39,399 nt of DNA, taken from assembly GCA_903908165.1 (NCBI GenBank), contig CAIVQX010000127.1:1-39399 (forward strand), written 5' to 3'. The notes below the pieces were generated by a model, which worked only from the letters and a program-made list of their open reading frames with translations, was not told the DNA's origin and searched no databases. A program made the position numbers and the translations under genes. The stretch is from an uncultured Methylococcaceae bacterium (GTDB lineage: Bacteria > Pseudomonadota > Gammaproteobacteria > Methylococcales > Methylomonadaceae). This document shows positions 5,513 through 15,541 of the stretch, piece by piece; position 1 is the first letter of the stretch; every line of letters starts with the position of its first letter.

Positions 5513-5540
5513 TTGCCAATTTACCACTTGAATGTATAAT
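5513..5540 (+). promoter_or_regulatory. Probable promoter of the dab operon
   Basis: TTGCCA (5513-5518), a 16-bp spacer, and a perfect TATAAT (5535-5540). It lies 52 bp before the first antiporter gene, which has an AAGGAG Shine-Dalgarno at about ten bases from its ATG. The opposite-facing suf promoter is about 150 bp away. Confidence 0.55.
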
Positions 5541-5592: not shown

Positions 5593-7065
5593 ATGGGGAT
5601 TCTCAGTCTAATACTTTGGACACCAGCAGCCGGCGCATTATTTTTAGCTTTAACGCCTAATCAGAATTTCCGAATTATCCGCACCATTGCAAACCTGTTT
5701 GTCACTCTTGTTTTTTTTCTAAGTTGCTGGCTTTTATCGATATTTGACCAACATAATGCAAGCATCCAATTAAGTGAATATTATCCACTCAACCCGAATC
5801 TTGGGAGCGCCTATGCACTAGGTGTTGACGGACTTTCGATACCGATGCTAGTTTTAGCAACTTTCCTTACATGTATTTCTCTGTTAGTTTCTTCCAGCAT
5901 TTGCAATAGCATTAAAGGCTATTATATCTGCATACTGTTGCTGGAATTCGGCATACTTGGTGTCTTTCTGGCCCAAGATTGGGCACTATTTTATATATTC
6001 TGGGAAGTAACCTTAATCCCTCTATTTTTTCTTATTGGCCACTGGGGCGGTAAACGTCGACATGTCGCGAGCCTCAATTTTGTTTTGTATACGATGGGTG
6101 GGTCTATATTTATGCTCATGAGCTTACTTGCCATCAGTCAATACGACCTCGAACACGCAGGATCCCTGATGACAACCATGCATCAGGCGGCAAAAGACAT
6201 GCCTCGCTACGAACAGATTTTAGTTCTACTTGGCTTTATCATTGGCTTTGGCGTCAAAATACCCATTTTCCCTCTGCACGGCTGGCTACCACTGGCACAT
6301 GTTGAAGCACCAAGCCCTATCAGCATTCTACTATCTGGTATTTTATTAAAAATGGGTGCATACGGTCTCATCAGAGCTGTGAATATGCTGCCCGAGGCTG
6401 CGCATATTCTACAGCCATTATTTGTTTTTCTTGGGTTGTTTGGGATGCTCTATGGTGGCTTACTTGCTTGGCGCCAAACCGATCTTAAAGCCATGGTTGC
6501 TTACTCTTCAATCAGTCACATGGGCATTGTTTTATTAGGTATTTCCACCTTAAACGAAATTGGATTTACTGGAGCAGTTATACAAATGAGTGCACATGGC
6601 TTAATTGCAGGGGCATTATTTTTAATGGTTGGATTGCTATATGACCGCACACATAGCCGAAACATTCATGATTACAGTTCTCTTATTCAAATAATGCCGC
6701 GCTTTGCTTTGCTTATGACCTTAACATTACTAGCAGCAATGGGACTGCCTGGGTCAATTGGCTTTATTGCTGAACTCCATGCACTTATCGGCGGCTTTCA
6801 AGAATGGGGAGGCCTCATGATATTTTTTAGTATAAGCATACTAATTAGCGCAGCTTATTCAATGCGCACCATAGGTATTTTATTCACCGGACCAGTAAAG
6901 TCTCCAATGAAACTAATCAATGACCTAAATACTACCGAACTATTCGCTTCAGGGTTATTAGTCTCTTTTATTGTGTTACTAGGTCTAATGCCCACCTCCT
7001 TGATTGAGCTATCCGCTGCAACAATTGAACAAATGAATAATCATATTGGGCAACGGCTTTTATAA
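5593..7065 (+). CDS. NuoM-like proton-conducting membrane subunit, first of the DAB locus
   Basis: Polytopic inner-membrane protein of the complex I antiporter family, 490 residues. It keeps the residues expected of a working ion channel: a glutamate in the FWEVTLIPLFF helix (E138), a lysine in GVKIPIFPLHGWLP (K222) and a second lysine in LLKMGAYGLIR (K253), matching E144, K234 and K265 of E. coli NuoM. The TDLKAMVAYSSISHMG segment is also typical. No other complex I genes (nuoA-K hydrophilic modules) are nearby; instead it precedes dabA by five bases. It therefore probably supplies ion flow to the carbon-uptake complex rather than to NADH dehydrogenase. An Mrp-type antiporter role is less likely because the mnh/mrp partners are missing. 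Confidence 0.85.
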   Translation: MGILSLILWTPAAGALFLALTPNQNFRIIRTIANLFVTLVFFLSCWLLSIFDQHNASIQLSEYYPLNPNLGSAYALGVDGLSIPMLVLATFLTCISLLVSSSICNSIKGYYICILLLEFGILGVFLAQDWALFYIFWEVTLIPLFFLIGHWGGKRRHVASLNFVLYTMGGSIFMLMSLLAISQYDLEHAGSLMTTMHQAAKDMPRYEQILVLLGFIIGFGVKIPIFPLHGWLPLAHVEAPSPISILLSGILLKMGAYGLIRAVNMLPEAAHILQPLFVFLGLFGMLYGGLLAWRQTDLKAMVAYSSISHMGIVLLGISTLNEIGFTGAVIQMSAHGLIAGALFLMVGLLYDRTHSRNIHDYSSLIQIMPRFALLMTLTLLAAMGLPGSIGFIAELHALIGGFQEWGGLMIFFSISILISAAYSMRTIGILFTGPVKSPMKLINDLNTTELFASGLLVSFIVLLGLMPTSLIELSAATIEQMNNHIGQRLL

Positions 7066-7070
7066 TAACA

Positions 7071-10000
7071 ATGCAAGAATTTCTTCCAATAAATCAGAGC
7101 AGTCGAGAACAGATTATAGCCGCCGTAAATCTGTTAGATCATATCCTGCCAGGACAAGCACCAATTCTTGATTTCGTTCATCACAATACCTTACATGGCT
7201 TTCAACACCTTCCATTTGAAGAGGCTTTAGCAACATACGAAGAATTAACCGGCATTAGTGGCTACCTTCCGGAATCTCAAAACCGCGCTTTTTACCAACA
7301 AGGGCGAATTACCCATGAAAATTTGTCCAAAGCAATAGCAAAACATGCCGATTTACTAGGGGAAGAAGTCATATGCTCTATACAAGAAGCCACTATCCGA
7401 CGAAAAGATATTTACACTATTGCCCTACTATTTGACCTAGAAGGCATTACCATTAGCCAATTAAATTGGCAAATAGAAGAATTTAATGCTTTAAATAAAA
7501 CCCAAGCAGATATTCCTGAGACAGCACGAAAGCAATTATTTGCAAAAAACGCTCATCAAGCCACCGTTATTAAAGAACTCTGGCAAAGTATTTTAAGTAA
7601 ACTTGATTTACAACAGGCCGCATTCCATCCTGAAGCATTACTCGATTTATCAGTAGAGCACACCGAAGAATGGCTTACTGCACATAAAGCCACGCTTCAA
7701 CAAGATTCATCATTTCATCATTCTGACTCCGTGTCTCTAGATGACTTATTTGATCAATTAGGCATCAGCACCACTTTTTGCGGATTAATACTTAAATTAT
7801 GCGGAATAGACATACTTGATTCTGTTCGTCCGCAATTAATACGCATCTGTGCATCAGCTATGGATGAAGGTGTCGCTCCCTGGCAGTTGCCTGAGCGGAA
7901 AGAGCTAGGTCTTTATAAAGCTTGGCGAACAACAGTAACCTATGATGCAAACCCATTTTTACATGACTTGCCAGACTGGCAACAGATCATTTCTGAATTA
8001 CCTGAAGATCCTATTGAAACCATCATCCTGCAACTAACCCACTTAGAAATACCTCAACTTAAATGGGATAATTACTTAAAAAAACTGGCCCTTGAGATAC
8101 CCGGCTGGTCAGGTATTATTAACTGGCGACAGCATCACCCTCAATATCAAGTAACAAACGATGCCGCACCAAAATTAGTCGATTACCTTGCCATTAGACT
8201 CACTCTGGACAGGTTATGGCTAAATCAAATATGCATGGATATCTGGAAAACTCCAGCTAAATTAAGTGCGCTGCACTCATATTTTCAAAAAAATCTCTCA
8301 GAATATTCTGTTCGTAGATCCCTTTACCAAGGTAACTTACCGGAATATTTGGCTCAACAGGCCGAGTCACTGACTATTCAAGCAGATCCAGATCGACATA
8401 ACCGCGACGATTGGCAACAACTTGCTGAATTAATTTGGACTTGGCAATGTAGTTCGCTTATTGAAAACAATACCGGACACACTGCGCAAGAAAGTGGTTG
8501 GCGCTTATTTCGCTTATGCCAACATTTAGGACTCAACAGCACCTATCTCGAAACGATCAAACAAAAAGATCTCTTGGCAATGTTAAATCTGCTGGATACG
8601 TTTAATATCAAAAAACGCAATGAAATATGGCTTTATGCTTATGAAATAAATTACAGCGAAAACCTTTTTCAAGCTTTGCACGCCAATCATAATCGCGGTC
8701 GTTGGGCCAAACGTGATAAATGCCCTGAATCTCAGATAATATTTTGCATGGATGATCGCGAAGAAGGATTTCGCCGTCATCTTGAAGAATTTAATCCCGC
8801 GATTGAAACGCTGGGCGCCGCTGGTTTTTTTGGTATCGCCATGCACTATAAGGGCCTAGATGATAACAAAACCAGTGCATTATGCCCGATATTCGTTACG
8901 CCTGCCCATGAAGTGCAAGAAGTAGCAATCGCCGATAATGACAAAGTTGTAAATAAGCATCGTAGAGGACTTACACTTAATCAAATGATTGCAAATTTTC
9001 TACAAAATAGTTTGCGTCGTAACTTGATATTATCTCATCCCATTATTGACGCGATTGCACCGCTAACTTTAGTGGGTCTTATAGCAAAATCACTGTTACC
9101 AAAATACCAGCAAACCATACTTGCAAGCATCATACAATGGCAATCGCCAGACGTTAAAACTCGACTGAATTTTACCTCAACTGATCACTCATCAATTGCC
9201 TCTGCAAATCACCCCAAACTAGGATTTACTGATAATGAGCAAGCATTCAGAGTTGCTGGATTACTTCGCAACATAGGATTGACTTATGGCTTTTCAGAGT
9301 TAGTCGTATTGATGGGGCACGGTTCTATTAGCCAAAATAACCCTCATGACGCCGCCCATGGCTGCGGTGCCTGCAGTGGTCGACATGGGGGACCTAATGC
9401 CCGAGTTTTTGCAGCAATGGCTAATCGTCCTGCAATTAGAAAACATTTGGCTGATTGGGGCATCAACATTCCAACTGATACCTGGTTTATTGGTGCAGAA
9501 CACAATACCTGTAGTGAGGCTATTAGCTGGTTTGATCTAACCGATATTCCAAAAGATCGACTTGCCAGTTTCAAAAAGCTTCAACTGGAATTAAAACACG
9601 CTCAACTTATGTCAGCCCATGAAAGATGCCGTCGACTTGCTTCTGCACCACGCAAACCAACGCCCAAAGAAGCGCTAGCTCATGTAGAAGAGCGCGCCTC
9701 TGATTTCTCTCAAGCCAGACCCGAATTAGGGCATGCTACCAATGCTTCAGCAATAGTAGGGAGAAGATCATTAACACAAGGTGCTTTCTTTGACCGCCGA
9801 GTATTCTTGATTTCTTATGATCCAACCCAGGACACTGATGGCAAAATACTTGAAGGTATTTTATTAGCTGTTGGCCCTGTAGGTGCCGGTATCAACCTAG
9901 AATATTACTTCTCAACCATTAATAACGACCGATTAGGTTGTGGTTCAAAAGTACCCCATAATATCACTGGTTTGTTTGGAGTAATGGAAGGTGGCAGCAG

Positions 10001-10334
10001 TGATTTACGAACCGGCCTACCTCAACAAATGGTCGAGATTCACGAAGCGATGCGCTTACAATTAGTAGTAGAGGCTAAAACATCAGTACTGGAACGAATT
10101 TATTCTGAACAAGAAAGCTTGCGTGAACTAATAGCTGGTGGCTGGATTCACCTGAGCACTAAAGATCCTGAGACGGGTGAAATCTTCATTTTTGAACGTG
10201 GAACAGGATTTATTCTGTGGCAAACTAATAAAGAAACACCGCAACTATATAACAACTCAACTGATTGTTATCGCGACAAAACCCTACCCGTTCCGCCCAT
10301 GCTGATTAAACAGCCTACACTATTGGAAACTTAA
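7071..10334 (+). CDS. dabA: DabA, inorganic carbon transporter subunit (DUF2309/UPF0753)
   Basis: Cytoplasmic zinc-dependent subunit of the DAB system, thought to hydrate CO2 to bicarbonate in one direction, driven by its membrane partner. The zinc and active-site residues are all visible: C559 and D561 in IIFCMDDREEGF, H750 in LMGHGSIS and C765 in HGCGACSGRHGG. The H-to-C spacing of 15 equals that of H524 and C539 reported for Halothiobacillus DabA2. An N-terminal FVHHNTLHGFQ segment is also characteristic. At 1087 residues it is longer than the roughly 830-residue Halothiobacillus protein and belongs to the long form of the family. It sits between antiporter-like subunits with gaps of five and three bases, so it is co-translated with them. 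No RuBisCO or carboxysome gene is in the window. Confidence 0.93.
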   Translation: MQEFLPINQSSREQIIAAVNLLDHILPGQAPILDFVHHNTLHGFQHLPFEEALATYEELTGISGYLPESQNRAFYQQGRITHENLSKAIAKHADLLGEEVICSIQEATIRRKDIYTIALLFDLEGITISQLNWQIEEFNALNKTQADIPETARKQLFAKNAHQATVIKELWQSILSKLDLQQAAFHPEALLDLSVEHTEEWLTAHKATLQQDSSFHHSDSVSLDDLFDQLGISTTFCGLILKLCGIDILDSVRPQLIRICASAMDEGVAPWQLPERKELGLYKAWRTTVTYDANPFLHDLPDWQQIISELPEDPIETIILQLTHLEIPQLKWDNYLKKLALEIPGWSGIINWRQHHPQYQVTNDAAPKLVDYLAIRLTLDRLWLNQICMDIWKTPAKLSALHSYFQKNLSEYSVRRSLYQGNLPEYLAQQAESLTIQADPDRHNRDDWQQLAELIWTWQCSSLIENNTGHTAQESGWRLFRLCQHLGLNSTYLETIKQKDLLAMLNLLDTFNIKKRNEIWLYAYEINYSENLFQALHANHNRGRWAKRDKCPESQIIFCMDDREEGFRRHLEEFNPAIETLGAAGFFGIAMHYKGLDDNKTSALCPIFVTPAHEVQEVAIADNDKVVNKHRRGLTLNQMIANFLQNSLRRNLILSHPIIDAIAPLTLVGLIAKSLLPKYQQTILASIIQWQSPDVKTRLNFTSTDHSSIASANHPKLGFTDNEQAFRVAGLLRNIGLTYGFSELVVLMGHGSISQNNPHDAAHGCGACSGRHGGPNARVFAAMANRPAIRKHLADWGINIPTDTWFIGAEHNTCSEAISWFDLTDIPKDRLASFKKLQLELKHAQLMSAHERCRRLASAPRKPTPKEALAHVEERASDFSQARPELGHATNASAIVGRRSLTQGAFFDRRVFLISYDPTQDTDGKILEGILLAVGPVGAGINLEYYFSTINNDRLGCGSKVPHNITGLFGVMEGGSSDLRTGLPQQMVEIHEAMRLQLVVEAKTSVLERIYSEQESLRELIAGGWIHLSTKDPETGEIFIFERGTGFILWQTNKETPQLYNNSTDCYRDKTLPVPPMLIKQPTLLET

Positions 10335-10337
10335 AGA

Positions 10338-11900
10338 ATGGATGCTTTAGTCATTCTAATACCTCTATTACCATTTACCGCAACCATACTCATTGGAGTT
10401 GGCATTTTAACGGGTGTAATTCATGGCGAAGCCAGTGAAAACAAGACCTCAATTATCGCGACCTGGACTATGAGCATGTCCTTCCTGCTTGCTCTAACGT
10501 TACTGATTGCTAATTTACTAAAAATAAACACAGGTTCAGTATTATTAGGAAACTGGCTCAGCAGTGATACATTAAATATTCAAGTAAACTTTATCAGCAC
10601 CGGATTTAGTGTTGTATTGGCAGTATTATTTACCTTTCTTTTAACTCTTATCATGCGCTTTTCTGTGAATTATATGCACAGAGAAATAGGCTTTCACCGG
10701 TTCTTCTTTATCTTGTGTCTTTTTGCTTCAGGCATTCTATTGCTCGTGCTATCAGGCAATGCAGTCGGCACTTTTTTCGGCTGGGAGATTGCAGGACTCT
10801 GCTCTTATCTATTGATAGCTTATGCTTACCATCGTCCAATTGCAGTCATAAATGCTACTCGGGTATTTATTACTAATCGCATTGGTGATGCCCTATTTAT
10901 TCTGGGGATAGCATTAACCTATTTGTGGACCGAAAGTATCAATTGGACTGACTTGAATGCCATGCCATCACAACTCGACAAAGGCGAAGCCAACGGAATT
11001 GCAATGTGTTTTGCCATAGCAGCATTTGCCAAGTCAGCGCAACTTCCTTTTACACCTTGGTTGGCACGTGCAATGGAAGGCCCAACGCCCTCCAGCGCAG
11101 TATTCTATGGCGCTGTTATGATACATGCAGGTGTTTATCTTGTCTGTCTCCTAGAACCTCTTTTTGAACAAGCCCCATTTGCTATGGCCTTGCTCGCAAT
11201 TGTAGGAGGCCTAACAGCAGCTTATAGCTTTATAGTTGGCTTAACTCAGACAGATATTAAAAGCTCACTGGTTTTTGCTACATCCGGTCAACTGGGTTTA
11301 ATGTTTATGGCTTGTGGATTAGGCTTTTGGCAACTTGCTAGTTGGCATCTTTGTGCTCATGCAATAGTTCGCTGCTATCTGTTCTTAACCGCTCCATCAC
11401 TTATGCATAATATCTCAGGCAACCCAATAAAGCCTGTTATGCCTATAATCTCAGGTCTTCGATGGGCCTATATAGCTTCATTACAACGTTTCTGGTTGGA
11501 TCAAATATCCGATTGGACTTTGGTAAGACCTATTAATCGACTTGCTCATGATCTTAGCTACTTTGATGATCATGTTATTGATCACATTATGGGCACACCT
11601 GCACCTGCCATACTAACAATATCCTCCATAGCAGAACTTGAAGAAAAACTACTAGGACCTGAACTGGATAATGATCTCGATAGTTTTGTCCACGGCAGGG
11701 GATTAGCGGGTAAACTTACGGCGTGGTTTGCCAGCGTTACACATTGGTTTGAAGATCGCTTTGTCTTACGTGGTGTTAATAAAGATGCAATTATGTACGG
11801 TCGAAAACTAGGACACGCCGCCAATAAATTTGAACGGTTAATATTAAGACCACGCTACATTGTACTATTTGTATTAATAATCTTTTTGATTGTATTTTGA
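10338..11900 (+). CDS. NuoL-like membrane subunit, probable DabB
   Basis: Polytopic membrane protein of 520 residues in the NuoL/NdhF branch. Diagnostic segments are FFGWEIAGLCSYLLIAYAYH with E150, FAKSAQLPFTPWLARAMEGPTPSSA with K232, and a TDIKSSLVFATSGQLGLMF helix. It is shorter than E. coli NuoL (613 residues) and lacks the long lateral helix and last segment of that protein, as DabB proteins do. It lies three bases after dabA, the arrangement expected of the partner subunit, and I take it as the best DabB candidate of the four antiporter-like genes here. A hydrophobic C-terminal helix closes the protein. Confidence 0.85.
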   Translation: MDALVILIPLLPFTATILIGVGILTGVIHGEASENKTSIIATWTMSMSFLLALTLLIANLLKINTGSVLLGNWLSSDTLNIQVNFISTGFSVVLAVLFTFLLTLIMRFSVNYMHREIGFHRFFFILCLFASGILLLVLSGNAVGTFFGWEIAGLCSYLLIAYAYHRPIAVINATRVFITNRIGDALFILGIALTYLWTESINWTDLNAMPSQLDKGEANGIAMCFAIAAFAKSAQLPFTPWLARAMEGPTPSSAVFYGAVMIHAGVYLVCLLEPLFEQAPFAMALLAIVGGLTAAYSFIVGLTQTDIKSSLVFATSGQLGLMFMACGLGFWQLASWHLCAHAIVRCYLFLTAPSLMHNISGNPIKPVMPIISGLRWAYIASLQRFWLDQISDWTLVRPINRLAHDLSYFDDHVIDHIMGTPAPAILTISSIAELEEKLLGPELDNDLDSFVHGRGLAGKLTAWFASVTHWFEDRFVLRGVNKDAIMYGRKLGHAANKFERLILRPRYIVLFVLIIFLIVF

Positions 11901-11907
11901 GTCGCTG

Positions 11908-13458
11908 ATGGAAATTACCTTTACCCCTTGGTCAGAATCAGCAGCTTTCCCGCTACTAACCACATTGACTCTTGTTCCTCTTATAGCGATGATTGCCATC
12001 CTCTGCTCGCGGTCTTCGGTTAGTGCTCTTCGGATTGGTTTCGCAGGTACAATTTTAACAGCAATACTCAGCATTTATCTGTTAGTTGTTTTTGATTCCA
12101 GTAACCCTAACATTCATCTCACCGAACAGTTTCACTTCGCTTGGCTCAGTTATAGTGTTGGGGTTGATGGCGCCAATATTTTATTTATTCCACTGACGTC
12201 CGTTCTAACTTTACTCGCTTTGATTTATACCGTTATTACCCGACATGTTACTCATCGTTTATTTATAGCTTGCCTGTTGGGGTATGAAGGCATTTTAATC
12301 GGTGCTTTTTCAGCCCTTAATCTTATGCAATTCTGGCTATGGTGTTTACTGGAAATTATCCCCGTAATTTTATTAACAACACATGCCGGAACCGGAAAAA
12401 ACAGGCGCTGGGTCATCACTCTATTAATGCAATATTGGGGTAGCGGTTTATTAATGACCTTGGCCGGCTTCATGTTACTCGCTTTCGGCTTGATTGATGC
12501 GGATCACGCGCTAACGTTTGACTGGCTTATCATAAAACAAAACAACGCTTATTTACATGATGAAGTCTTGATTTTTATACTGTTACTGTTTGGCTTTGCC
12601 ATTCGAATGCCATTATTTCCATTTCATGGCTGGCTACCGCTTCTTGCCGAACAAGGCACGGTCGCAAGTTGTAGTATTTTTATGATAGGCTTAAAACTAG
12701 GCATTTATGCCGTTATTCGTTTTATATTACCATTAGTCCCTGGTGTTGCTGAACAATGGGCCGATTTTGTCTTAACTTTAAGCCTGATCAGTATTTTTTA
12801 CGGCGCTTTGCTTGCACTAATGCAAATTAATATTCGACGCTTACTGGCCTTTGCTGTCGTCAGCCATACAGGCATGCTGGTTATTGGTATTTTCTGCTTT
12901 AACGAATATGGCTTGGAAGGTAGTCTTTTACTATCCATTGCTTATGGTCTTGCCACAGCCGGCATGTTATTTAGTGTTGGTTTGATTTATGAACGCACAC
13001 GCACCGCATTTATCATTCGGTTAGGTGGACTATTTGATACCAATACTGCCATAGCATTACTGTTTCTAATTTCAGCATTATCAACTATGGCGATGCCTGG
13101 TACACCCGGATATGACGCAGCACATTTACTCATTGAAGGCGTCATAGAAGAAGACGGATGGTTACTGGCTATATCAATATTAATAGGCAATGTACTTGCT
13201 GCAGCTTTCTTACTCCGCGCTTTTCAACAAATTTTTATAGCCACTCCAGTTCGTGCCCATCAGCCTGATAGTGCTATTCATCACCCCGTCAAAGAAGAAC
13301 GTATTATTACCTTGGCAATCTGTTCATTACTTGTTGTCACTGGTTTTTATTCAACGCCATGGCTAAACTACATAGATCAGGAAGCTTCAGATATTGGTAA
13401 GCATTATCCTATGCATGGCTCCCAACAAACTAACAAAATTACCGCTCCAACTAGATGA
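11908..13458 (+). CDS. Divergent NuoM-like membrane subunit
   Basis: Third antiporter-family protein of the locus, 516 residues from the ATG at 11908. A TTG at 11890 is in frame, but the ATG has a GAG six bases upstream and avoids overlapping the previous gene. The glutamate helix is kept (E149 in CLLEIIPVILL) and so is the second lysine (GLKLGIYAVIRF), but the main pump lysine is replaced by arginine (R233 in FAIRMPLFPFHGWLP). The usual EAPT-type loop reads EQGTVAS, and the GLPG-F-AE motif near the C-terminus is AMPGTPGYDAA. It may have a structural or modified ion-conducting role. The stop overlaps the next start by four bases (ATGA). Confidence 0.8.
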   Translation: MEITFTPWSESAAFPLLTTLTLVPLIAMIAILCSRSSVSALRIGFAGTILTAILSIYLLVVFDSSNPNIHLTEQFHFAWLSYSVGVDGANILFIPLTSVLTLLALIYTVITRHVTHRLFIACLLGYEGILIGAFSALNLMQFWLWCLLEIIPVILLTTHAGTGKNRRWVITLLMQYWGSGLLMTLAGFMLLAFGLIDADHALTFDWLIIKQNNAYLHDEVLIFILLLFGFAIRMPLFPFHGWLPLLAEQGTVASCSIFMIGLKLGIYAVIRFILPLVPGVAEQWADFVLTLSLISIFYGALLALMQINIRRLLAFAVVSHTGMLVIGIFCFNEYGLEGSLLLSIAYGLATAGMLFSVGLIYERTRTAFIIRLGGLFDTNTAIALLFLISALSTMAMPGTPGYDAAHLLIEGVIEEDGWLLAISILIGNVLAAAFLLRAFQQIFIATPVRAHQPDSAIHHPVKEERIITLAICSLLVVTGFYSTPWLNYIDQEASDIGKHYPMHGSQQTNKITAPTR

Positions 13459-14999
13459 ATGACGTCAATTTTCCGCTACTCAGCATTACTATTTTACTAC
13501 CCTTAATTGGCGCGATAATAACTGTAATAACATACAACATTAATTTAGCTAGAAAAATTGCCTTAGGATTTGCCAGCCTCGAATTAATCTTAACCTTGAT
13601 AGCATTAACTTTATTTAATCCCACCCAAGGGAACCAATTTCAGTTAATTGAACATTATGCTTGGATACCAAACTTAAACATCGAATATTTAATCGGTATC
13701 GACGGCATATCTATATTATTTTTACCCATGTCAGCCCTATTAACGGTATTAGCAATTTTTGCCTCGTGGAATTCTGTGCAACACCAACAACGTCTTCATT
13801 TTGCATTGTTACTAGTATTAGAAGGCATCACCATAGGCGTATTTTCAGCGCTGGATACAGTTTTATTTTTTTTATTTTGGGAACTCACTTTACCCCCTAT
13901 TTTCTTTTTGACTAGTCTTTGGGGAATAGGTCCTGAGCGCCGTAGTGCAGCTATGAAATATACATTATTTATGCTAATTGGTGGGGTTCCATTATTATTT
14001 GCCATAGTTATCTTGGCTATTAATCACGCCAATGATATGGGGGGTACTCTTACTCAAAACTTATCCTTTAGCTTACCTTTATTACTCGAAACAAAATTAA
14101 CCGACAACCTACAACCCCTTGTTTTCATATTATTCCTGCTTGGATTTTCTGTAAAAGCACCCCTTTTCCCTTTTCATACTTGGTTGCCTAAGGTTGCTAT
14201 GGAAGGCCCAACGCAACTAACAGCCTTATTGCTTGGGCTGAAGCTCGGTATATATGGTATCCTGCGCTTTGCCATACCATTAGCTCCATCTGCTGCTGTT
14301 GAATATAGCTGGGCCTTGGGGATTCTAGGTGCAATTACCCTTATCTATTCTGGATTAATTGCATTACAACAAACCAACTTCAGACGCTTACTGGCTTATG
14401 CCAGCATTAGTCACGTTGGCTTAATAATAATTGGCATTTCATCCTTAACAACACAGGGGATACAAGGTGCGATTTTTCAACTAGTTAACTTTACTCTAAT
14501 TTCAAGCTCTCTAATGCTAATTGCCGGATTTATTCAGCATCGATTAGGTAGCACCGAGACAATACACTTAGGTGGGTTAGCAAAAGTAATGCCCCGTTTA
14601 ATCACCTTTTATTTTTTCTTTGTATTAGCCAGTATAGGACTTCCCGGCACTAGTAGTTTTCCTGCTGAGTTATTATTGATTTTTGGTGCCTTAACAGCTC
14701 ATCATAGCTTGGGTTTCACCGCACTTGCTGGAGCAATACTTGGTGCAGCTTATATGCTCTCGTTCACTCGCAAAGCATTTTTTGGACCTATTACTCAACA
14801 TGCCATTAATAAGGTCCAAGATTTACGTCCGCGCGAACTGACTATTCTCTGCATACCAGCGTTATTAATTTTAGCCTTTGGTTTTTTCCCAAATGTCTTA
14901 CTAGCTACGAATCAGGTCGCTGCAGAAGCTTGGATATCCAACCTACTAGAGCAACCAATTATGAAAAGTAATGATCAAATAGGATTGTTAAGCCCTTAA
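13455..14999 (+). CDS. NuoM-like proton-conducting membrane subunit, fourth of the locus
   Basis: Membrane protein of 514 residues with canonical NuoM features: E143 in FWELTLPPIFFL, K234 in SVKAPLFPFHTWLP, a second lysine in GLKLGIYGILRF, TNFRRLLAYASISHVG and, near the end, GLPGTSSFPAELLL. It starts inside the stop of the previous gene (ATGA), so the two are co-translated. With the first and second antiporter proteins it appears competent for ion movement, giving three intact and one altered channel subunit in the same operon. It is the last membrane gene before a small DUF1348 gene. Confidence 0.85.
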   Translation: MNDVNFPLLSITILLPLIGAIITVITYNINLARKIALGFASLELILTLIALTLFNPTQGNQFQLIEHYAWIPNLNIEYLIGIDGISILFLPMSALLTVLAIFASWNSVQHQQRLHFALLLVLEGITIGVFSALDTVLFFLFWELTLPPIFFLTSLWGIGPERRSAAMKYTLFMLIGGVPLLFAIVILAINHANDMGGTLTQNLSFSLPLLLETKLTDNLQPLVFILFLLGFSVKAPLFPFHTWLPKVAMEGPTQLTALLLGLKLGIYGILRFAIPLAPSAAVEYSWALGILGAITLIYSGLIALQQTNFRRLLAYASISHVGLIIIGISSLTTQGIQGAIFQLVNFTLISSSLMLIAGFIQHRLGSTETIHLGGLAKVMPRLITFYFFFVLASIGLPGTSSFPAELLLIFGALTAHHSLGFTALAGAILGAAYMLSFTRKAFFGPITQHAINKVQDLRPRELTILCIPALLILAFGFFPNVLLATNQVAAEAWISNLLEQPIMKSNDQIGLLSP

Positions 15000-15061: not shown

Positions 15062-15541
15062 ATGAACAGTCAATATAATGGTCGCCGTCCATTTCCACCC
15101 TTTACTCAAGAAAGTGCCCTCTTAAAAGTACGCATGGCAGAAGATGCATGGAACAATCAAGACCCTAAAAGTATTGCCTTAGCCTATACCGCAGATAGTC
15201 AGTGGCGGAACCGTAACGAATTTTATAAAGGTCACGAAGAAATCATAAAATTTCTAACTAACAAATGGTCAAAAGAGCACGAATATCGCTTAATAAAAGA
15301 ACTGTGGTGCCATAATAGCAATCGAATCGCCGTTCGCTTTGCTTACGAATGGCATAACGATAAATTAGAATGGTTTCGTTCATATGGCAATGAGAATTGG
15401 GAGTTCGACAATAACGGCCTAATGCGATGCCGCTATGCAAGTATCAATGACTTATCGATTAATGAATATGATAGAAAATTTCACTGGCCAAATGGTGTGC
15501 GCCCTAACGATTATCCAGGTTTAAAAGACTTGCTACTTTAG
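15062..15541 (+). CDS. DUF1348 / NTF2-like small protein
   Basis: Protein of 159 residues recognisable as the DUF1348 family of the NTF2/SnoaL-like fold, a cone-shaped barrel that forms ligand-binding or enzyme pockets. Typical segments are [26 protein letters not shown] (read as two overlapping motifs), the [12 protein letters not shown] helix, and a tryptophan-rich [11 protein letters not shown] strand. There is no signal peptide or membrane segment. It follows the DAB antiporter genes by 62 bp on the same strand and may be co-transcribed, but the gap and the lack of a clear Shine-Dalgarno leave this open. The family has no firmly known reaction, so no function is assigned. Confidence 0.8.

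Follow-up and report, generated by a model that had tools for sequence, protein, structure and literature searches.

A conserved five-gene DabA locus with four antiporter-like subunits in Methylococcales

Genes of the locus and their phylogeny

Positions 5593 to 14,999 of a 39,399-nucleotide contig from an uncultured Methylococcaceae bacterium hold five genes in the order M1-DabA-L-M2-M3, in which the gene for a long DabA is enclosed by four genes for antiporter-like subunits (Table 1). The whole contig (CAIVQX010000127.1 of assembly GCA_903908165.1; G000:C127), hereafter called the window, belongs to a genome of 2.78 Mb in 210 contigs that is 99.4% complete. An earlier note, made from the sequence alone, had described the region as a DAB-type carbon uptake locus, with one NuoM-like gene before dabA and one NuoL-like and two NuoM-like genes after it. 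The open reading frames (ORFs), their common strand, the profile matches and the tight spacing bear out this anatomy: the successive gaps from M1 to M3 are +5, +3, +7 or −11, and −4 bases. The PF10070 profile covers residues 21–1026 of DabA with a score of 816 bits (cut-off 25), M1 and M3 match the NuoM profile TIGR01972 with 473 and 455 bits, respectively, and M2 is a weak NuoM match of 278 bits (cut-off 263.8). The gene after dabA is indeed of the NuoL type, but its NuoL profile match is confined to about residues 1–360 of 520, the first two thirds.

Table 1. Features of the five-gene locus, in window coordinates
Feature	Position	Strand	Description
M1	5593–7065	+	490 amino acids (aa); NuoM-derived antiporter-like subunit; E138, K222, K253, E394 as in NuoM
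DabA (long)	7071–10334	+	1087 aa; β-carbonic-anhydrase-like; Zn site C559/H750/C765 with D561-R563
L	10338–11900	+	520 aa; DabB/NuoL-type; predicted transmembrane helices (TM) 1–11, low-confidence amphipathic helices, one C-terminal TM
M2	11908 (ATG)–13458, or from TTG at 11890	+	516 aa, or 522 aa from TTG; divergent NuoM-derived subunit; E149 shifted, R233 at TM7 Lys, D403/H406 at TM12 Glu
M3	13455–14999	+	514 aa; NuoM-derived; E143, K234, K263, E405 as in NuoM
Candidate sigma-70-type promoter	5513–5540	+	Upstream of M1; 11/12 consensus matches; weak

The origin of the four subunits was addressed with a quick maximum-likelihood analysis that included 69 antiporter-like proteins and used the 304 columns common to all, with SH-like approximate likelihood ratio test (SH-aLRT) support only and a program warning of long branches elsewhere in the tree. 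In this tree, L clusters with the single-antiporter DabBs (SH-aLRT 98), while M1, M2 and M3 form three separate clades (99, 99 and 94) on the NuoM side (100), with M2 and M3 as sister clades (96). None of the four groups with MrpD or NuoN. The phylogeny, which the earlier note had named as a check, thereby identifies L as the DabB type and M1–M3 as three old NuoM-derived clades. Every subunit clade includes both Methylococcales and Nitrosomonas/Nitrosospira proteins, which means either that the paralogues arose long ago or that all the genes were transferred together as a set.

A differently ordered locus in another family of the order (genome G032, L026:7802–16278) also speaks for multi-antiporter DABs. 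Its order is DabA-L-M-M; L is full-length there, the two M genes are of the NuoM type, and both M proteins group with nitrifier NuoM (90). This sequence evidence points to a second recruitment of NuoM and a possible second origin of such loci. As a separate observation, genes for a SulP-family transporter fused to a β-carbonic anhydrase domain (L026:4965–7382, minus strand; L027:12509–14809, plus strand) lie next to the multi-antiporter loci in G032 and G034.

Channel residues, the shortened L and the DabA enzyme

In order to compare the channel residues, we counted rows with more than 380 aligned residues and more than 40% identity, with identical rows collapsed. M1 keeps E138, K222, K253 and E394 in 77, 78, 78 and 77 of 78 rows. 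In M3, E143, K234, K263 and E405 are each conserved in all 69 rows. In M2, an arginine (R233) replaces the TM7 lysine, the TM5 glutamate (E149) is shifted by about two residues and K263 is present, while the TM12 glutamate is absent and D403 and H406 stand instead. Since each of these five residues is kept in 74 of 74 rows, M2 appears to be remodelled rather than dying.

The second departure concerns L. All 76 L orthologs have 162–189 residues beyond position 355, and every one of them is without strong hydrophobic segments from residue 356 up to its final 35 residues: the top hydropathy over 19 residues in this stretch has a median of 0.92 and a maximum of 1.54, as compared to at least 1.64 within the final 35. 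The same region holds four to eight hydrophobic segments in seven NuoLs, five short DabBs, the Nitrobacter DabB and the L of G032. L is thus a DabB without the second transmembrane bundle (TM12–15), which all seven other DabBs checked keep. In the AlphaFold2 model of L (mean predicted local distance difference test score 73), helices run to residue 355 (about TM11), mostly with good confidence, followed by low-confidence long helices and a terminal helix; the model aligns to NuoL/ND5 chains at Z 36–48. The signal for a NuoL lateral helix in L is weak, consisting of second-domain fragments, an hhalign probability of 34.6 and the low-confidence model helices, and some model alignments extend to residues 387–509, near NuoL residues 504–588. 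The missing second bundle implies that a second half-channel would have to come from elsewhere, either the DabA finger or a neighbouring M subunit. Four equal channels, as the four antiporter-like subunits of the earlier note might suggest, are therefore unlikely, because L has only the first half of the antiporter fold and the M2 residues are altered, and only M1 and M3 are left with an essentially NuoM residue set.

The catalytic residues of the enzyme are conserved. DabA2 of Halothiobacillus neapolitanus (PDB 9rd0) aligns with the window DabA at E 5e-72, and its Zn ligands C351, H524 and C539 and its dyad D353-R355 (PMC13144422, cited here, like the other articles, from the available parts of its text) correspond to C559, H750, C765, D561 and R563, which are kept in 32 of 32 aligned DabAs. 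Two long helices (624–650 and 652–675) are predicted at the position of the DAB2 finger. A Foldseek search with the DabA model gave no match at E ≤ 0.001, and is hence uninformative on the fold. Residues 100–149, 161–180, 195–235, 387–473 and 494–503 (208 in all) are absent from the short methanotroph DabAs.

Inheritance of the set and decayed DabA forms

Is the set a fixed unit? We compared 80 named loci, together with 234 Methylococcales genomes that are each at least 90% complete, in which long DabA was called at E ≤ 1e-200. The named relatives belong to Methylobacter, Methylomonas, Methyloglobulus, Crenothrix and other Methylococcales, and to the ammonia oxidisers Nitrosomonas, Nitrosospira and Nitrosovibrio. 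Judging by these relatives, the host genome is Methylobacter-like and belongs to Methylococcales. The search for the same gene order, another check named in the earlier note, found M1-DabA-L-M2-M3 uninterrupted in 59 of the 80 loci, Nitrosomonas and Nitrosospira included. One further locus (L065) has an interrupted L, and of the other 20 most reach contig ends and some are truly split. Six of the incomplete loci were traced into their genomes. About 10 kb downstream of DabA lack L in L129 and L096, and the DabA contig ends in L097, L098 and L102; all five genomes carry an L-M2-M3 block on another contig, and M1 as well (5/5). In the remaining one, L134, both L and M3 are present and M2 is fragmented.

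In the genomes, M2 occurs in 130 of 234 and L in 129, and the two agree in 233 (both in 129, neither in 104), the sole disagreement being G063, which has M2 only. Long DabA occurs in 120 genomes, 118 of them with L and two without; 11 genomes have L only and 103 have neither. The 11 L-only genomes all hold a long-type PF10070 relative, which is decayed or diverged in ten and a 243-aa fragment in one (G210). These observations support the view that the four antiporter-like genes and this DabA are one co-inherited unit. The earlier note had held that its reading would fall if only the NuoL-like gene were needed for uptake and the others belonged to a separate, remote complex; as the set is fixed and co-inherited and the phylogeny agrees, the extra subunits belong with DabA, and complex I was not detected in the host genome (see below).

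Two individual loci deserve mention on their own account. In Methylobacter tundripaludum SV96 (L168:6936–7848, equivalent to L065:14621–15533), about 0.9 kb with two minus-strand ORFs, which by eye resemble an insertion sequence transposase, interrupts L, and the set may be broken there. In Methylocucumis oryzae Sn10-6 (L166:2318–3874), L and M3 are intact, and M2 between them is broken up into several short frames.

The decayed or diverged DabAs, sampled in ten genomes of one genus (g28) and in G063, are 529–982 aa long (the frame of G207 runs off its contig). In G205 and G209, the five-gene order is intact while DabA is reduced to its N-terminal domain, with the catalytic domain lost; the shortened gene overlaps L by one base or ends 16 bases before it. 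The Zn ligands are also gone in G201, G194 and G195, and G206 has lost C765 while retaining C559 and H750. All three ligands are kept in G200, G207, G196 and G197, as well as in G063, where Cys replaces the Arg of the dyad. Despite the loss of the Zn site, a hydrophobic stretch resembling the finger can still be made out by eye in G201 and G194. Another PF10070 protein, of full length, is encoded elsewhere in nine of the 11 genomes (not G207 and G063).

The antiporter genes of g28 are open and 46–68% identical to those of the window (in G063, M2 35% and M3 46%). Pairwise ratios of nonsynonymous to synonymous substitution rates (dN/dS; simple Nei-Gojobori) in three decayed pairs are 0.10–0.19 for M1, L, M2 and M3 and 0.24 for DabA, and those in two intact control pairs, one with dS of only about 0.1, are 0.07–0.26. 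The antiporters of the decayed lineage thus remain under purifying selection. At the same time, at least one otherwise invariant channel residue of L or M3 is lost in all ten genomes with L or M3 data (G197 has none): E143 of M3 in eight of nine (G063 keeps it) and E150 of L in seven of nine (one Asp). K222 and E394 of M1 are lost in six of ten genomes with decayed DabA. In M2, E149, R233 and K263 are kept in nine of ten, D403 in five and H406 in eight; of the ten M2 rows, all but G063, which sits apart on a long branch, fall into a single clade (93). Because channel residues are lost where DabA decays, the L and M3 channels probably served the DabA reaction, with which M1 fits less well.

The DabA insertions behave differently from one another. 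Segment 387–473 of the ten g28 forms is 44–57% identical to that of the window, as compared to 35–49% for the shared N-terminal part and 20–33% for the other insertions. In 22 intact long DabAs, the segment is 31–66% identical, mostly below the shared part (48–73%). Since it is the best-kept part of the g28 forms, segment 387–473 may face the extra subunits. In DAB2, the DabA N-terminal domain was suggested to serve mainly folding (PMC13144422).

Host context, interpretation and rival explanations

What could the M subunits join in this host? The host genome has no match to NuoD (PF00346), the 49-kDa complex I subunit, at E ≤ 0.001, and its PF00361 proteins are five: M1, L, M2, M3 and the 627-aa DabB of a short DAB (contig C173; L021 4818–7424, an 868-aa DabA, and 7421–9304, the DabB). 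The M genes therefore have no detected complex I to join. Complex I (nuo) is absent from many Methylobacter genomes (PMC12810054); the available main text of that article mentions neither carbonic anhydrase, bicarbonate nor Dab. The single-contig genomes G019 and G034 also carry the set, and their NuoD-family match is partial and weaker. RuBisCO (PF00016) likewise gave no match in the host at E ≤ 0.001.

Among the known systems, DAB2 (DabA2-DabB2 of H. neapolitanus) shares the DabA family, the Zn site, the Asp-Arg dyad, the NuoL-type partner and, by prediction, the helix pair at the finger position. It differs in having a single DabB with 15 TM helices and finger Glu444 (PMC13144422), in contrast to the 1087-aa DabA, the L without TM12–15 and the three NuoM-type subunits here, that is, four antiporter-like subunits instead of one. 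The short DAB of the host also pairs a PF10070 protein, about 40% identical to the long DabA over 524 residues, with a DabB-type partner, but this DabB keeps its C-terminal hydrophobic segments and no NuoM gene adjoins. In L104, L116 and L121, a five-gene and a short single-antiporter DAB are separated by no more than a few kb. MpsAB of Staphylococcus aureus is homologous to DAB (PMC13144422) and is a two-gene CO2/HCO3- supply in a non-autotroph, whereas no NuoM-type subunit is mentioned for the mpsAB/mpsABC operon in the available text (PMC6689103). Respiratory complex I (NDH-1) has NuoL- and NuoM-type subunits in its membrane arm; here NuoD is missing from the genome search and DabA takes the place of the redox module.

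The closest description is that of the COG3002/YbcC clade C operons (COGNAT, PMC5700660, 2017), in which ybcC (dabA) precedes a nuoL homologue, often with NuoM (COG1008) and SulP genes nearby, and the number of membrane subunits was proposed to reflect the number of ions. Multi-NuoM DabA loci and the ion-number idea are therefore already in print, and the multi-antiporter DAB locus of the earlier note stands as a co-inherited unit but not as one without precedent. The available text of PMC5700660 does not give the fixed five-gene set, the subunit truncation, a residue analysis or decayed forms. Our search of the open-licence PMC literature, which excludes supplementary files, did not find the fixed set, the shortened L, the remodelled M2 or the decayed DabA forms, and we noticed no description there of the five-gene set in methanotrophs or nitrifiers. 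The available parts of PMC10880623 and PMC12628692 do not mention Nuo, and those of PMC13399641 mention COG3002 only as a neighbour of MpsA.

From the observed gene order, co-inheritance, conserved catalytic and channel residues and phylogeny, we judge that the locus probably encodes a multi-antiporter variant of the DAB (DAC/MpsAB) CO2-uptake system, with M1–M3 as dedicated subunits alongside L and DabA. The long DabA would be a cytoplasmic Zn enzyme that hydrates CO2, L would be its DabB, and M1, M2 and M3 would join them in one membrane assembly. Proton entry down the proton motive force (PMF) through L and at least M1 and M3 may drive vectorial CO2 hydration, M1 and M3 serving as further proton paths or gears in an extension of the DAB2 mechanism. 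HCO3- would accumulate, probably for anaplerotic carboxylation, as the host has no RuBisCO match. By hand calculation, one H+ at 150 mV provides 14.5 kJ/mol, or about a 340-fold HCO3-/CO2 ratio over equilibrium. Because one H+ per CO2 would already suffice at a normal PMF and four would far exceed the need, extra channels make most sense at low PMF, and the extra subunits would most likely enable pumping under such conditions, rather than always passing four protons per CO2.

Several observations weigh against this interpretation. As L lacks TM12–15, the DAB2 proton path is not transferable unchanged. The ion-pair residues of L are common to single-antiporter DabBs of the same and related genomes (5/5 rows), and the TM5 Glu/Arg/Asp/Lys ion pairs, tried as the mark of a lateral array, were dropped for this reason. 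Glu444 of the finger, which is essential in DAB2 (PMC13144422), corresponds to Asp660 here; the column, which adjoins an alignment gap, has D 14, N 7, M 2, A 1 and P 1 among 25 long DabAs, D in G032, Q in five of five short DabAs and E in Nitrobacter. Glu444 is defining for DAB2, though not necessarily for all DABs. Long DabA without L occurs in two of the 234 genomes (G134 and G032). In the decayed lineage, K222 and E394 of M1 are kept in four of ten genomes (G194, G195 and G201, which lack the Zn site, and G206), and G200, G207, G196 and G197 keep the Zn ligands yet lost M1 K222/E394; a strictly concerted loss of catalysis and channels, considered as a candidate pattern, is thus only partly true. 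Moreover, the host has eight PF00484 (β-carbonic anhydrase) matches in addition to the short DAB, and the need for the five-gene set is therefore unproven. Biochemical data on any multi-antiporter DAB were not found in the literature.

Could L alone carry the coupling protons, with M1–M3 moving no ions and acting as structural membrane partners that hold DabA in place or regulate it? The non-canonical channel residues of M2 would suit this explanation, as would the decayed-DabA genomes, where proteins under purifying selection despite many lost channel residues must have some role independent of them. However, the NuoM residue sets are kept almost without exception in M1 and throughout in M3, and we consider this explanation unlikely. 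PF00361 covers Mrp subunits too, and the homologue MpsAB was argued to use sodium (PMC13144422), so M1–M3 might be a cation/proton antiporter in its own right that shares no more than a transcript with the DabA-L pair. Yet M1–M3 lie apart from MrpD in the tree, and no ORF for a small Mrp subunit (MrpB/C/E/F/G) fits between the five genes, although the rest of the genome was not searched with profiles for such subunits. The M genes flank dabA-L with one before and two after, L and M2 agree in all genomes but one, and L or M3 channel residues decay alongside DabA. These points make a separate antiporter very improbable.

Methanotrophs, as is generally known, generate CO2 internally, which would favour a reverse machine. 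Such outward pumping of ions by an exergonic DabA reaction was first proposed for the YbcC operons (PMC5700660). By hand calculation, however, only about 6.5 kJ/mol is released when CO2 is hydrated at pH 7.5 and CO2 and HCO3- are equally abundant, too little to move even one H+ against 150 mV, and DAB2 is described as a CO2-uptake system (PMC13144422); this direction can be given scarcely any credence.

The multi-antiporter DAB can be taken a step further. The assembly might be one multi-channel, complex-I-like CO2 pump of low gear, in which the half-DabB is completed by its neighbours and HCO3- is concentrated at low PMF, and which in one lineage is kept by selection as a new type of non-pumping membrane complex after the loss of the carbonic anhydrase site and much of the ion path; we find this possible, though doubtful. 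If the antiporter number does set the coupling ratio, the DABs would be an electron-free model of complex-I-type channel stacking and gearing, separable subunit by subunit. As L and M2 occur in 129 of the 234 Methylococcales genomes, the locus suggests a widespread system of CO2/HCO3- supply among methane and ammonia oxidisers, and the natural loss-of-catalysis variants indicate which parts hold the gene set together.

The surroundings of the locus yielded minor observations. Sigma-70-type sites show no excess across the region (32 found, 30.9 expected), and the candidate promoter of M1 is therefore weak. Directly downstream of the set, a DUF1348 (SnoaL-like) gene lies at window positions 15062–15541; it adjoins the set in some Methylobacter-type relatives, and is not counted in it. 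Plasmid 1 of Nitrobacter hamburgensis X14 (L160) carries two tandem DAB units with an extra gene (locus 7871–8632) and a PII gene, beside a carboxysome operon.

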